Made by a program: the position numbers and the translations under genes
DNA from: Patescibacteria group bacterium
GTDB lineage: Bacteria > Patescibacteriota > Patescibacteriia > UBA9934 > GWF2-40-263
Assembly (NCBI GenBank): GCA_018814025.1
Contig: JAHJAM010000007.1
Span: 1-32,602 of the forward strand
Reading direction: 5' to 3'
DNA length: 32,602 nt
Shown: positions 1,267 to 30,143 of the stretch, in pieces
How positions within the stretch are numbered: position 1 is the first letter of the stretch
Layout of the letters: each line of letters starts with the position of its first letter
The notes under the pieces: model-generated
Database searches by the model: none
Told to the model about the DNA's origin: nothing
What the model saw: the letters and a program-made list of their open reading frames with translations, nothing else

Positions 1267-1572
1267 ATGGGCGAGAAAAAGAGGCCCAAGCGGCCGCGGC
1301 CGGCCAAGCGCCGAACGCTGCCGCCGGATGCCAAGTCTTTGGTCGAGATGATCGGGACTCTCTCCTGCAAGCTGGCCCGCAAGGCTGAGCATCTGCAGCG
1401 GGAGGCGCACGACTACAAGTCGCGCAGCGGTTTTCGGATTATGTTTGAGCAGCGGGCCGCGGCTTTCCGCCGTTTGGCCGAGCTGGACGCGGCGCAAGCC
1501 GCGGAGCTGGCCGAGGCTCTGGGATTCCAGATCGACGCTACACTTCACGACCTGACCCCGGAGGCAAAATGA
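1267..1572 (+). CDS. Small basic helical protein coupled to Cas12-like effector
   Basis: I do not recognise this 101-residue protein. Its first 16 residues are highly basic and proline-rich (KKRPKRPRPAKRR), suggesting nucleic-acid contact. The rest (about 20-90) is predicted helical and alanine-, leucine- and arginine-rich, ending in an acidic helix. GAGGTG stands 4 nt before the ATG. The stop overlaps the start of the next gene as ATGA, so translation is coupled and the two products are probably made in similar amounts. This and the shared GC-rich composition suggest it works with the Cas12-like protein, as a subunit, RNA chaperone or regulator. It might also be a detached N-terminal piece of an ancestral larger effector. 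No enzyme motif is visible. Confidence 0.75.
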   Translation: MGEKKRPKRPRPAKRRTLPPDAKSLVEMIGTLSCKLARKAEHLQREAHDYKSRSGFRIMFEQRAAAFRRLAELDAAQAAELAEALGFQIDATLHDLTPEAK

Positions 1573-3539
1573 GTTGGTACAACGAGTCCGCGGCCGGCGA
1601 TCAAACCGGTTATGTGGTGGTGGAAGCCAAGCTGGGCGCTTCGCGTGCTAACAAGCCGCTTCCCACTTGGAAGCGTCAGGTACTCGCGCGGCTTTCGGCC
1701 ATGGTGAGCAATGCCCTGCGGCAGACCATGCAGATGATCGAAAGGTCGCTGACTGTGGTCATGGAGAACGAGAAGTTTGAGACCCAGACGGTGGCCGGAG
1801 TGTGGCGGCCTGATGGCGCATGGTTCGTGCGGAGCGCGGCGCTTAAGTTCCGGGTCAATCCGGAGCAGGCCGAGCGTATCCGCAACCTGCTCGCGCAGGA
1901 AGCCAAGCCCTACGGCTACACCAATGCCTATCGCTTCACGGGTCTGGATCAGGATGCAGAGGGTTTTATCGCTTTGGCCGAGATTGCCAAAGGCGAGTGG
2001 AACGAGAAGAACGGTAAACGGCGCCATGTGCTGTCCGTGATTCAGTCCACGACCGGGTTGCAGCAGCTAATTGCGACTTATCTGCAGCCGCCATTTCTGA
2101 TGGCCCTGCCGCGCGCTTTGCGCGCGGGCGTGGCTCAGGAAGCGGCCCAGCAGACCACGAGTTATCTGGGTCAGCTGGATTCGGCTAAGGTCAAGGGTGA
2201 GACGGCTTTTCCAACCATGGAGGACCGCGACCCGGAGCGCCGCCAGGCCGCCTATAACTCGGCTTTTGAAGCGCTGATCGCGGATGTCCGACCGCTTAAC
2301 CATTGCCGAGCTCGTGATAAGGATCCGGGCAAGTATAAGCCGGATGACCCGCGCGGCGATCGACTGATCGTGGATGACGAACGCTGGTTCGCGGTTACGA
2401 CCACGCCGGATCCGCATCCGATTCCGCTGTTTTTCGTGAAAGGCGATTCGGTGCGGGTGGAGTTGACTGAGCTCTCTTTCCCGGTCGGGGTTTCCAAGAA
2501 GAACCGGCACCGTGGACGACTTGCGCCGAGCGAGCGCGTGCTCGCGGATCGGCCCGAGCGTGTACGCGCCAAGGGTGACACCAAGGCGCGGATGTTTTCG
2601 GCCTTGCTGCCGGTGCTGGATACGCAGGACGAGGAAATTGTCCGAATCCTGGCTGAGCGCGATCAGCGCAAGCAGGAGTCCAAGAGCCAGGGCCGGCAGA
2701 TGGCTGGCGACAAGATCACTTTGCCGCTGGTCGGATCGGTGAAGAATCGAGACACGGATTTGCGCCTGCCCATGAGCTTTGACCGCGCGCGCTTCGAGCG
2801 TCTGTTGTCGCGGAATGATCTGCAGGTGGCCTGGGCGCGGCTAGTCAACAAGCGTGGGGACTGGTTTATCCAGCTCACCTTGCGCGTGCCTTACGCCAAA
2901 CCGCAGGGTTTGCGCCGCGTGCTGGGTGTTTCCTTCGGCCTCAACGCGATCATGAGCTGGTCGCTTCTGGACGAGGCCGGCCAGACTATCGAAGCGGGTG
3001 CGCTCGCGCCCAATCCCCAGATCAAGGCCTTTCTTGACCGCAAACTCAACCTGGAATGGGATCAAGCCAAGGGGCGCTGGGTGGGCGGCAAAAGCTTTGA
3101 TCGGGAATTGGAGAGCATTGCTCATCGCGTGGCCAACCAAGCCGTGGAGCTGGCGCGCACACATCAGGCCGTGCTCTGCGCCCATGACATCCAGTGGGTG
3201 GCCAAGTCCGGGCCGGATTCCAAGTTGAACGTCCTATTCACGGCTTGGAACTACGGGCAGATGCGCCGCTACCTCGAGTACAAGGCGCCGCTCTCCGGTC
3301 TGGGTGTTCCTTTGTTTACGGGTGATTACATCGTCCGCATGACCTGTCCCCAGTGCGGCGCGATTCGTGAGGCTAAAGAAAAGCCGGAAACGGCTAAGAC
3401 CTGGCGCACCAATGGCGTGTTGCATTGCCGGGCGTGCGGGTTCGAAGGCGAACTCACAGGCGCGCAGGACGCAAAGCGTGTGGCCGAGCATGGTCTTGGT
3501 CTGGCACGCAAAGCGTGGGCCAAGGAGAAGGTCGAATAG
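1569..3539 (+). CDS. Cas12-like effector with degenerate RuvC site (candidate new type V subtype)
   Basis: This 656-residue protein has the C-terminal architecture shared by Cas12 and TnpB. A beta-rich WED-like end (about 370-447) is followed by RuvC-I around VLGVSFGLN (451-459), RuvC-II around VLCAHDIQW (535-543), a four-cysteine zinc finger (C593, C596, C620, C623) and RuvC-III around residues 628-645. In active members RuvC-I carries Asp, RuvC-II Glu and RuvC-III Asp. By my alignment these positions are S455, H539 and G631; D540 and D634 lie close by but out of register. The frame is open, and the TnpB-like fold signals on both sides of each change are good, so a sequencing error is unlikely. 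The N-terminal 370 residues would be the REC part; I see no known family there. Length is near that of Cas12k and Cas12m, which also bind rather than cut DNA. GGAGG precedes the start. The GC-rich composition suggests transfer. Confidence 0.8.
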   Translation: MSWYNESAAGDQTGYVVVEAKLGASRANKPLPTWKRQVLARLSAMVSNALRQTMQMIERSLTVVMENEKFETQTVAGVWRPDGAWFVRSAALKFRVNPEQAERIRNLLAQEAKPYGYTNAYRFTGLDQDAEGFIALAEIAKGEWNEKNGKRRHVLSVIQSTTGLQQLIATYLQPPFLMALPRALRAGVAQEAAQQTTSYLGQLDSAKVKGETAFPTMEDRDPERRQAAYNSAFEALIADVRPLNHCRARDKDPGKYKPDDPRGDRLIVDDERWFAVTTTPDPHPIPLFFVKGDSVRVELTELSFPVGVSKKNRHRGRLAPSERVLADRPERVRAKGDTKARMFSALLPVLDTQDEEIVRILAERDQRKQESKSQGRQMAGDKITLPLVGSVKNRDTDLRLPMSFDRARFERLLSRNDLQVAWARLVNKRGDWFIQLTLRVPYAKPQGLRRVLGVSFGLNAIMSWSLLDEAGQTIEAGALAPNPQIKAFLDRKLNLEWDQAKGRWVGGKSFDRELESIAHRVANQAVELARTHQAVLCAHDIQWVAKSGPDSKLNVLFTAWNYGQMRRYLEYKAPLSGLGVPLFTGDYIVRMTCPQCGAIREAKEKPETAKTWRTNGVLHCRACGFEGELTGAQDAKRVAEHGLGLARKAWAKEKVE

Positions 3540-3948: not shown

Positions 3949-4090
3949 CGGTCAAAAATCCGGAAAAACAAGGAGTGGTCACTGTGGCTTCTTCTTGGCC
4001 AACCACGCGCTTCCGGTCAAAAATCCGGAAAAACAAGGAGTGGTCACTGAGCGAGATTAAAAAAGCCGAACGCTTTTCGGTCAAAAATCC
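3949..4090 (+). CRISPR. CRISPR array 2: two full repeats, two spacers, truncated end repeat
   Basis: Identical 34-nt repeats lie at 3949-3982 and 4014-4047. They begin CGGTCAAAAATCCGG and end CAAGGAGTGGTCAC. A third copy at 4078-4090 keeps 13 nt. Spacers are 3983-4013 (31 nt) and 4048-4077 (30 nt). Layout and repeat length equal those of array 1, but the repeats agree at only 25 of 34 positions, mainly the first ten and last five. The 3' end (AGTGGTCAC) resembles, from memory, the GAAGTGGCAC end of Cas12b repeats, which would place the spacer on the 3' side of the handle. That is typical of type V. Confidence 0.87.
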
Positions 4091-28413: not shown

Positions 28414-29187
28414 ATGAATGAGTTAGCGCGCGAGTTATTGCATTTCGGCTTATCGGAAAAAGAAGCCGCGGTTTATTTGGCGGCTTTGGAAATGGGACCT
28501 TCACCAGTGCAGGATATTTCTCATAAGGCTAAAGTTAACCGAGCCACGACTTATGTGATGATTGAAGCTCTGACCAATCGAGGTTTGATGAGCACTTATG
28601 TCAAAGGCAAGAAACGGTTTTATGCCGCGGAAACTCCGGATCGTTTGCGAACGATTTTGCGCATGCAGCAAAAAGAGCTTGAAGAAAAAGAAAATGAATT
28701 GGGTGAAGTCCTGCCCCTGCTGCTGGCTCTTTATAATGCCGAAGGCGCTAAGCCGCAGATTCGCTATTTGGAAGGGTCGGAGGGTTTACAGACCGTGCGT
28801 CAGACTTTCAACAAGCTGGAAGGCGAGTTTATTCAAATTGTGCCTTATGATGATTTGAAAGCGTTTGAGGAAATCATGGCCCAGCAATCGGAACATTTAA
28901 AAGAATTGGCTGAGCAGAACGCCTCTTATCGAGCTTTGCTGGTCATGAAAGATCCCAAAGTTGAAAATATTCCCAAAGCGCTAAATGGCGAAGCGCGAGT
29001 GATTCCGGCTGATAAGTTTCCGATTCACTCGGAAATCACGGTCCGAGGCAATCATATTTTGCTTTATTCTTTTAAGTCCGCGATTCTCTCCGTGGTGATT
29101 GTCAGTCAAGAAATTGCTGATGCGATTCGAGCGCTGTTTGATATGGCTTGGCTGGGTACGGAAAATTATCCCAGCAAGAAACAATGA
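28414..29187 (+). CDS. TrmB-family transcriptional regulator
   Basis: This 257-residue protein has a winged helix at 5-75 (LLHFGLSEKEAAVYLAALEMGPSPVQDISHKAKVNRATTYVMIEAL), a coiled coil (about 80-110, RMQQKELEEKENELGEVLPLL) and a C-terminal effector-like region (120-250, IRYLEGSEGLQTVRQTF). This is the TrmB architecture, known in archaea for sugar-responsive control and common in Patescibacteria. Location after a glycan operon suggests control of sugar metabolism or transport, but no target site could be shown. The stop is followed by two hairpins, the second a terminator. Confidence 0.87.
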   Translation: MNELARELLHFGLSEKEAAVYLAALEMGPSPVQDISHKAKVNRATTYVMIEALTNRGLMSTYVKGKKRFYAAETPDRLRTILRMQQKELEEKENELGEVLPLLLALYNAEGAKPQIRYLEGSEGLQTVRQTFNKLEGEFIQIVPYDDLKAFEEIMAQQSEHLKELAEQNASYRALLVMKDPKVENIPKALNGEARVIPADKFPIHSEITVRGNHILLYSFKSAILSVVIVSQEIADAIRALFDMAWLGTENYPSKKQ

Positions 29188-29197
29188 TAAAAAAATA

Positions 29198-29236
29198 GCT
29201 CGCAGGGGTCTCTGGTTAGAGTCCACTCCTGCGAGC
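29198..29236 (+). other. tRNA-minihelix-like hairpin in the trmB 3' region
   Basis: GCTCGCAGG (29198-29206) pairs perfectly with CCTGCGAGC (29228-29236), and inside it CTCT pairs with AGAG around GGTT. The right half reads like a tRNA T-arm and acceptor end (GGTTAGAGTCC, ending GCCA), but no D or anticodon arm exists, so it is not a tRNA gene. It could be a remnant of a tRNA or an mRNA 3'-end structure. Confidence 0.45.
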
Positions 29237-29248
29237 CAGCTAAGGGAG

Positions 29249-29270
29249 CGCACCGGTTGGTGCGTTTTTT
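29249..29270 (+). terminator. Terminator of the trmB-like gene
   Basis: CGCACC (29249-29254) pairs with GGTGCG (29259-29264) around GGTT, then six T. Confidence 0.9.
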
Positions 29271-29276
29271 ATTTTG

Positions 29277-29435
29277 TCATCCACCGCCAAGACCGCAGTG
29301 CATGTTGGGTTTGATGGCGAAGATGTTGTTGTGGAACGGATGGGTGTCTTTTGACGCTTGAATTGGCTTCAGATCATCGGTGGTCGATTCAAAGTCGTGA
29401 GCACTAAGATTGGGGTTGATGATTAGGAAAAACAT
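29277..29435 (-). CDS. Small protein behind a structured leader
   Basis: This 52-residue protein (start MFFLIINPNLSAHDFESTTD, end NMHCGLGGG) has no recognised family. Support comes from upstream DNA: a good minus-strand promoter, a leader of about 110 nt, and GAGG 5 nt before this ATG. An adjacent ATG at 29438 is an alternative start. A short hydrophobic beginning is followed by a polar middle with several histidines. A single cysteine before GLGGG at the end may matter, as in small processed peptides, but this is speculation. It is convergent with the trmB-like gene. A chance frame cannot be excluded. Confidence 0.45.
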   Translation of the reverse strand: MFFLIINPNLSAHDFESTTDDLKPIQASKDTHPFHNNIFAIKPNMHCGLGGG

Positions 29436-29438
29436 CAT

Positions 29439-29546
29439 TGCCTCGCTTTGAGGCCTCGGACGGAACACACTATGTGCGCCATCACTCCGGCCTCGGGAAT
29501 CCGGGCCAGTCCTGTACTGGCCTGGGCCGCTGCTTTGAAGAAGCGA
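29439..29546 (-). promoter_or_regulatory. Candidate riboswitch-like leader with switchable ribosome site
   Basis: Read on the minus strand, GAGGC (29444-29440), containing the Shine-Dalgarno, can pair with GCCTC (29454-29450), masking it. The same region as GGCCTC (29455-29450) can instead pair with GAGGCC (29494-29489), enclosing a hairpin made by GATGG (29483-29479) with CCGTC (29463-29459) and CACA with TGTG. That would free the ribosome site. A separate strong hairpin GGCCAGT/ACTGGCC (29522-29504) lies upstream. Two exclusive stems sharing one strand is the classic riboswitch expression platform. I cannot name the aptamer class. Confidence 0.5.
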
Positions 29547-29552
29547 CTGAGA

Positions 29553-29581
29553 AATATATCAGGATTGAGGGGATTTGTCAA
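29553..29581 (-). promoter_or_regulatory. Minus-strand promoter of the structured leader
   Basis: On the minus strand TTGACA (29581-29576), a 17-bp spacer and TATATT (29558-29553), with TGA directly before the -10, form a near-consensus promoter. It starts near 29546 and reads left through the structured leader. Confidence 0.75.
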
Positions 29582-29718
29582 GGGTTTTGGCTAAGATGAC
29601 GGAAAATACGGATAAATATGGGAAAATATCCGAATAGTCCGTGTTTGTTCTTGATAACAGCCTTTGATTGATATTTAGCCTATTTTTAGCGATATTTCCG
29701 GGTGGTGTCTGGATACCC

Positions 29719-29747
29719 TTGACAAAATGGATTTCCCGTGGTAGCTT
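29719..29747 (+). promoter_or_regulatory. Plus-strand promoter of a short transcript
   Basis: TTGACA (29719-29724), 17 bp and TAGCTT (29742-29747) predict a start near 29754. The unit ends at the terminator at 29853-29894. Confidence 0.6.
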
Positions 29748-29753
29748 ATGCCG

Positions 29754-29894
29754 TTCTGCCGGAACTCCGGGAGAGCACCTCGGGTTAATACCCGCGGATA
29801 TGGGGAAAGAAGAGGAGAGAGTCATGGCCCCCATGCTGGCTATGTGAAGTAAAAGACCTGTTCGCGTCCTTCATTGGATCGTTCAGGTCTTTTT
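29754..29894 (+). ncRNA. Short transcript with a 7-codon ORF and terminator
   Basis: The predicted RNA of about 140 nt has hairpins CCGG/CCGG (near 29759-29770) and CGGGT/ACCCG (near 29780-29794). A strong AGAGGAG then precedes ATG at 29824, giving the peptide MAPMLAM with stop at 29845-29847. AAGACCTG (29853-29860) pairs with CAGGTCTT (29884-29891) and T residues end it. CTCC or CCTC in the upstream hairpins could pair with the ribosome site. No plus-strand gene follows, so it is not an attenuator of a neighbour. It may be a dual-function small RNA, or just a tiny-peptide gene. Confidence 0.5.
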
Positions 29895-29927
29895 ATTTGA
29901 AGACAAAAATTGTTCATAAAACAAATC

Positions 29928-30115
29928 CACCCTTGAATCCTGCCTTAGGCGACTGCTACGAGAGCAGGTCCCAAGACAAGATTCAAGGGTGAATTGTTAG
30001 GACGGTTTGAGGCGTCCAATCCTCTGGGGAAAGAGGTTGTGGAATTTTCATTCCACACTCTTGGCCATGAAGGTTTCATGAGCAAGAGTGTGGCGGGGAG
30101 TCAGAACGACTCCCC
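29928..30115. ncRNA. Run of six perfect hairpins, candidate structured RNA
   Basis: Six stems follow one another: CACCCTTGAATC (29928) with GATTCAAGGGTG (ends 29991); GGACG/CGTCC (30000-30017); CCTCT/AGAGG (30021-30036); GTGGAAT/ATTCCAC (30039-30056); CACACTCTTG (30054-30063) with CAAGAGTGTG (30083-30092) plus inner CATGA/TCATG; and GGGGAGT/ACTCCCC (30095-30115). Stems four and five share 3 nt and are partly exclusive. No coding frame is credible. It could be a plus-strand RNA or the 3' region of the minus-strand gene ending at 30144; on the minus strand the last hairpin is followed by a T-rich stretch. Confidence 0.55.
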
Positions 30116-30143
30116 GAGAGGTGGGAAAAGAACAGGTGCCAGG

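Follow-up and report, generated by a model that had tools for sequence, protein, structure and literature searches.

Translational coupling between a short leader open reading frame (ORF) and its downstream gene has been proven for ORF27 and iraD of E. coli, where CsrA binds the ORF27 initiation region in the iraD leader (PMC5574718). ORF27 has its own Shine-Dalgarno (SD) sequence, its stop overlaps the gene start and a structure hides the SD of the gene, with coupling by hairpin opening and/or restart. In the erm attenuators (ermB/ermBL, PMC8274638; ermC), alternative stems around a leader-peptide ORF hide or free a downstream initiation site, and control there depends on stalling that a drug induces at the leader peptide, which is conserved (PMC8274638). 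In M. tuberculosis ppe2, a true B12 riboswitch and an upstream ORF coexist in one structured, switching leader with an AUGA stop-start overlap (PMC11260477).

The locus described here shares elements with each of these systems. It lies in a window (the whole stretch of DNA analysed, 32,602 nucleotides) that is an entire contig of a 978-kb genome, the closest named relatives of which are Candidatus Uhrbacteria (Patescibacteria). To our knowledge, almost nothing is known about gene control and small peptides in Patescibacteria. The features of the locus are as follows.

29553–29581, minus strand: promoter of the extended -10 type, TTGACA-17-TGATATATT; same type and place in most Uhrbacteria homologues
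29528–29545, minus strand: 5'-terminal leader hairpin, weak in the window and strong in many homologues
29501–29525, minus strand: second leader hairpin (CCAGGCCAGTACAGGACTGGCCCGG), from fold prediction
29489–29494, minus strand: arm A, GAGGCC, probable SD of the upstream ORF (SD1), 8 nt from its ATG
29450–29455, minus strand: arm B, GGCCTC, anti-SD; its alternative partners are arm A and, for the GCCTC part, arm C
29440–29444, minus strand: arm C, GAGGC, SD of the micropeptide ORF (SD2)
29435–29482, minus strand: upstream ORF of 15 codons, MAHIVCSVRGLKARQ and a stop; the stop TGA (29437–29435) overlaps the micropeptide start codons
29277–29438, minus strand: ORF of the micropeptide; the first ATG (29438) gives 53 aa and the second (29435) 52 aa, with C-terminus AIKPNMHCGLGGG
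29189–29236, minus strand: probable intrinsic terminator (GCTCGCAGG...CCTGCGAGC TATTTTTTT) at the end of the micropeptide message, from direct reading and folding
28414–29187, plus strand: TrmB-type HTH regulator gene (Pfam PF01978, E 3.8e-12)

As in iraD, the gene is preceded by a short ORF with its own SD, a stop overlapping the gene start and a predicted structure hiding the gene SD; the two differ in that CsrA is the regulator in iraD, that the anti-SD of the window also pairs with SD1, and that iraD is a normal-sized gene. The leader-peptide ORF and the alternative stems recall erm, but the leader peptides of the window family are not conserved, SD1 is itself one of the pairing arms, and the product is a micropeptide. 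The stop-start overlap in a structured, switching leader is shared with ppe2, whereas the B12 aptamer recognisable there has no recognisable counterpart in the window.

A preliminary description of this DNA, made from the sequence alone, had reported a near-consensus minus-strand promoter and a folded leader in which GGCCTC pairs either with GAGGCC upstream or with the SD-bearing GAGGC downstream, and had judged the logic to fit ligand-controlled translation, as in a candidate riboswitch. The promoter (TTGACA at 29581–29576, a 17-nt spacer with TG, TATATT at 29558–29553) carries 11 of 12 consensus bases and is the only such site in the window, where 0.02 were expected; like those of the family it is of the extended -10 type and lies 250–500 nt from the TrmB stop, and transcription is predicted to start at ~29546. 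The 99-nt leader folds with a z-score of -3.7, and none of 200 dinucleotide shuffles folded as well. Two near-equal states are predicted, one with A:B paired at -52.2 and one with B:C paired at -48.8 kcal/mol (a gap of 3.4), and with A:B as the preferred fold SD2 is partly accessible (unpaired with a mean probability of 0.30). Among 3000 shuffled leaders in which the last 14 nt, containing the SD, were kept fixed, an SD hairpin alone arose with P 0.044, and a hairpin together with an equally good alternative partner in ~0.5% (P 0.0047). The predicted folds thus contain mutually exclusive structures at an expression signal, as a riboswitch would, and the promoter match, the fold score, the two states and the shuffle test together therefore confirm the structural observation of the preliminary description.

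What that description missed is that arms B and C lie inside the 15-codon upstream ORF, that arm A is the probable SD of this ORF, and that its stop overlaps the ATG of the micropeptide. The SD spacing is 8 nt, and a comparable overlap arose in 6.7% of shuffles. The micropeptide starts at ATGATG (29438/29435) and its ORF ends at 29277. The predicted hairpin GCCTC-AAAGC-GAGGC, which holds SD2, falls within codons 10–14 of the upstream ORF, so that a ribosome on this ORF would traverse it. SD pairing is available in this host, since its own 16S rRNA has the 3' end ...GGATCACCTCCTT, given also as CACCTCCTT, containing the anti-SD CCTCC.

Our preferred reading, to which we assign a probability of about 0.58, is that the leader controls the micropeptide by translational coupling or attenuation through the upstream ORF, and not by chemical sensing. 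SD1 (arm A) would start the upstream ORF; this ORF contains the anti-SD (arm B) and, towards its end, SD2 (arm C), which would serve the micropeptide. With A:B paired, SD1 would be hidden and the inner stem would hide the upstream start, leaving SD2 free; with B:C paired, SD2 would be hidden. A ribosome that translates the upstream ORF, pauses on it or terminates there could decide which pairing stands, and it could open both pairings and restart at the overlapping micropeptide ATG. If ribosomes on the upstream ORF set both pairing and restart in this way, micropeptide output would follow upstream-ORF translation. The sequences, the two predicted folds of near-equal energy, the return of the layout in homologues and the selection on the micropeptide are what the analysis shows; transcription, translation of the upstream ORF, its coupling to the micropeptide and any signal acting on that coupling are inferred. 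The weakest link is the putative translation of the upstream ORF, the peptides of which vary between lineages and are not conserved.

The micropeptide itself belongs to a TrmB-linked family that was previously undescribed and is the new part of this work. Homologues were found by collecting TrmB orthologues and reading their convergent flank, the TrmB-type gene being the marker of the locus across the family. In the window this gene is convergent (tail-to-tail) with the micropeptide ORF, and a stand-alone small gene stands in the same relation to it in 25 of the 31 Uhrbacteria loci with flank, a count in which atypical members, L060 and L063 among them, are included; at L064, L065, L075, L076, L078 and L082 the micropeptide gene is absent or another small ORF is present. 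Every typical member combines a TTGAC-17-TGnTA promoter with a leader of 51–172 nt, an SD, an ORF of ~27–54 aa and usually a terminator. Its peptide has a variable body and a C-terminus (for example RPHMHCGAGS, QPCCHCPGGS or CPCYICPGGS) that usually follows the pattern ..P..HC..GG/GS, as does AIKPNMHCGLGGG in the window. A strict rule of C..G[GSA] before the stop was satisfied at 18 of the 31 loci on the convergent strand and at none on the other strand, with 0.05 in shuffles. Homologue pairs show pN/pS of 0.27–0.59 and an excess of third-position changes, that is, purifying selection. Together, these comparisons indicate that the micropeptide gene is real and conserved.

Profile searches of the micropeptide against Pfam, NCBIfam and PHROGs gave no match above the curated cut-off, and a DNA search with 29230–29600 against 73 genomes from the order, and against plasmids and phages, returned only short chance matches, mainly promoter or coding scraps. 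The peptide alone as query gave weak matches, of which the sole syntenic one (G033) lies at the same locus position; a match on a viral contig (L048) appeared to be due to chance. A peptide profile (A1) searched against 381 genomes of the class found no new member, because its strong matches were in Uhrbacteria only and all were already rows of the alignment. A type I toxin was rejected, as the peptides are not hydrophobic. Genes for RiPPs and signalling peptides are short and encode a variable N-terminal part and a conserved C-terminal Cys with Gly-Gly or Gly-Ser. The micropeptide is likewise short, with a variable N-terminal part and a C-terminal Cys plus Gly-Gly/Gly-Ser, and one thought is that it may be a processed signal or a RiPP; it differs in that none of the neighbouring genes was recognised as serving maturation or export. 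Double-glycine export through a C39 peptidase was rejected, since none was found in 9 of the 11 genomes searched, the window's own among them. A strongly promoted micropeptide kept beside TrmB across reduced (~1 Mb) genomes likely matters to the cells, and it offers defined targets in the pairing of regulator and peptide and in the leader, the switching of which is testable in E. coli reporters.

Similar ORF ends occur by eye at TrmB loci of distant Patescibacteria (TEHCGGEGG in L115, AYCCAGG in L124, QPHMHCPACG in L130, and ANC[GD]EGG in L123 and L126, with a second copy further upstream), and a profile (A3) built from some of the distant peptides retrieved L164, which ends in RPVANCGCGA and again adjoins a TrmB gene. 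The strict C-terminal rule matches 2 of 17 distant loci only, and these resemblances no more than hint at similar peptides in other Patescibacteria families. We consider it doubtful, if conceivable, that a family of TrmB-linked micropeptides with a variable body and a C-terminal [R/K/Q]P...C..GG extends Patescibacteria-wide, its members acting as RiPPs, dual-function RNAs or processed signals and each having a two-ORF attenuator that evolves fast and under which synthesis of the upstream peptide and that of the micropeptide would almost exclude one another. L123 and L126 each carry two micropeptide ORFs in succession at a single TrmB locus; the first has a hydrophobic N-terminus, and the second has a promoter to itself. 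At a TrmB locus of another Patescibacteria lineage (L131), minimal ORFs (MGV, MGTGC) with good SDs occupy the micropeptide position.

The leaders of the homologues fall into 15 short (51–78 nt) and 10 long (98–172 nt) ones. Under a strict rule, none of the 15 short leaders has an SD hairpin or an alternative arm. A hairpin of 5–7 bp with a 5–7-nt loop, of which the SD forms the 3' arm, is present in six of the ten long leaders (window, L061, L067, L069, L073, L105); homologues with an SD hairpin are L053, L055, L061, L067, L069, L073 and L105. The arms differ by leader (CTCCGG/CCGGAG, CTCTCCG/CGGAGAG, CCTCCA/TGGAGG, CCCTCT/AGAGGG, CTCCGA/TCGGAG, GCCTC/GAGGC). The anti-SD arm has a strict Watson-Crick upstream partner in five of the six, the partner in L067 requiring wobble or mismatch; no strict 5-bp SD hairpin is present in L054 or L056, and none of L054–L056 and L067 has an alternative partner under the strict rule. 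In the L054–L056 clade a longer hairpin also holds the start codon, and one-sided changes appear by eye to preserve its pairs. Since leaders of different genera are not alignable, per-leader shuffle tests were used in place of formal covariation analysis; hairpin plus alternative, combined over 8 lineages, gave P 4.5e-8, or 7e-7 without the window. The competing states were 0–3.4 kcal/mol apart in all six leaders tested. A hairpin at the predicted transcript start also recurs in homologue leaders (e.g. L080, L077, L054) with changing stems (TCGTTTCC..GGAGACGA, CTCTTCC..GGAAGAG; combined P ~3e-7), and is perhaps an mRNA stabiliser.

The upstream partner of the anti-SD is the SD before the upstream ORF, as GAGG-8 nt-ATG in the window and GGAG-6 nt-GTG in L105; GGAGG precedes the upstream ATG in L067 and L073, and GGAG precedes it in L061. 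The order SD1, anti-SD, SD2 is thus often re-created in long leaders with unrelated sequences. An SD-preceded upstream ORF overlaps the micropeptide start by 1–8 nt in the window, L054–L056, L061, L067 and L105; the upstream ORF of L073 is in frame, and L069 has no acceptable overlapping ORF. Upstream ORFs of long leaders span 15–22 codons, and changes in that of L054–L056 showed no coding bias in a by-eye reading. Mutually exclusive pairing at the SD arises anew in leaders that are unrelated although their genes are homologous, which makes translational control of the micropeptide likely. This control appears to be driven by ribosomes, since the segment that switches is at the same time an upstream ORF that follows an SD and overlaps the gene start.

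The SD hairpin could also act with the upstream ORF playing no part, either as an RNA thermometer or by being opened by a protein (for example the convergent TrmB, or a CsrA-type GGA-binder) or an sRNA. Recurrence of the SD hairpin with changed sequence in long-leader homologues and the plentiful GGA motifs in the window leader are compatible with such ligand-free structural control, and the ORF overlap could partly arise by chance, being expected at 1–4 nt in 4–12% of shuffled leaders and in any acceptable arrangement in 5–28%. However, upstream ORFs with both an SD and a start-stop overlap are found in five of seven independent long-leader lineages (L072 excluded) and in none of the short leaders, and we therefore consider this explanation unlikely. 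Still somewhat less probable is an alternative pairing that has no regulatory role: in a two-ORF leader any anti-SD would pair with SD1 as well as SD2, and the strong promoter would simply express the gene. Two purine-rich SDs automatically share one complement, and short-leader homologues dispense with the pairing, yet anti-SD and SD hairpins are re-created above chance in several lineages and the two states have near-equal energies.

A riboswitch is unlikely, and an aptamer formed by the A:B-closed domain (29494–29450), with a ligand choosing between A:B and B:C, strikes us as quite improbable: the domain is compact and stable, its pairing at the SD is mutually exclusive and riboswitches are known to coexist with upstream ORFs in M. 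tuberculosis metE and ppe2 (PMC11260477), but Rfam gave no match at the gathering score, neither sequence nor shape between the arms is conserved among homologues, and 15 homologues of the gene with leaders of 51–78 nt lack the stems. Of the ligand-controlled translation first proposed, the mutually exclusive SD pairing is thus supported and the ligand control is not; at least 15 short-leader homologues have neither stem, which for this part of the family is what the preliminary description said would refute its reading. The aptamer is normally the most conserved part of a riboswitch, and the inter-arm region here could not be aligned among homologues. At E<=10, Rfam matches below the gathering score were chance matches and none was credible; miRNA matches at 29918–30001 fall on an inverted repeat and were discarded. 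Nothing found in the locus points to a ligand, and leaders of the form SD1, anti-SD, SD2 can mimic a riboswitch on paper.

A second small transcript, which lies just upstream and is divergent (29719–29896, plus strand), has a promoter TTGACA-17-TAGCTT, a hairpin CCGGAACTCCGG, the motif GGAGAGAGT before a 7-codon ORF (MAPMLAM) and then a terminator. GGAGAGAGT is found in the upstream flank of about half of the homologues, and GG[AT]ACTCC recurs near a divergent promoter in L060, L063 and L081. A search for tRNA and tmRNA genes found none. At the other end of the window, a Cas12f-like protein of 656 aa (1569–3539, plus strand; PADLOC Cas12f E 1.7e-49; Pfam TNB domain E 8e-5, below cut-off) is surrounded by duplicated long blocks (1–131/3697–3827) and flanked by pairs of 36-nt direct repeats at 65–66 nt spacing (264–365 and 3949–4049), which may be a pair of mini CRISPR arrays. 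Strong inverted repeats follow one another in series at 29918–30130 (TTCACCCTTGAATC...GATTCAAGGGTGGA; CCACACTCTTG...CAAGAGTGTGG; GGGGAGTC...GACTCCCC), where they separate the small genes from a membrane-protein ORF.
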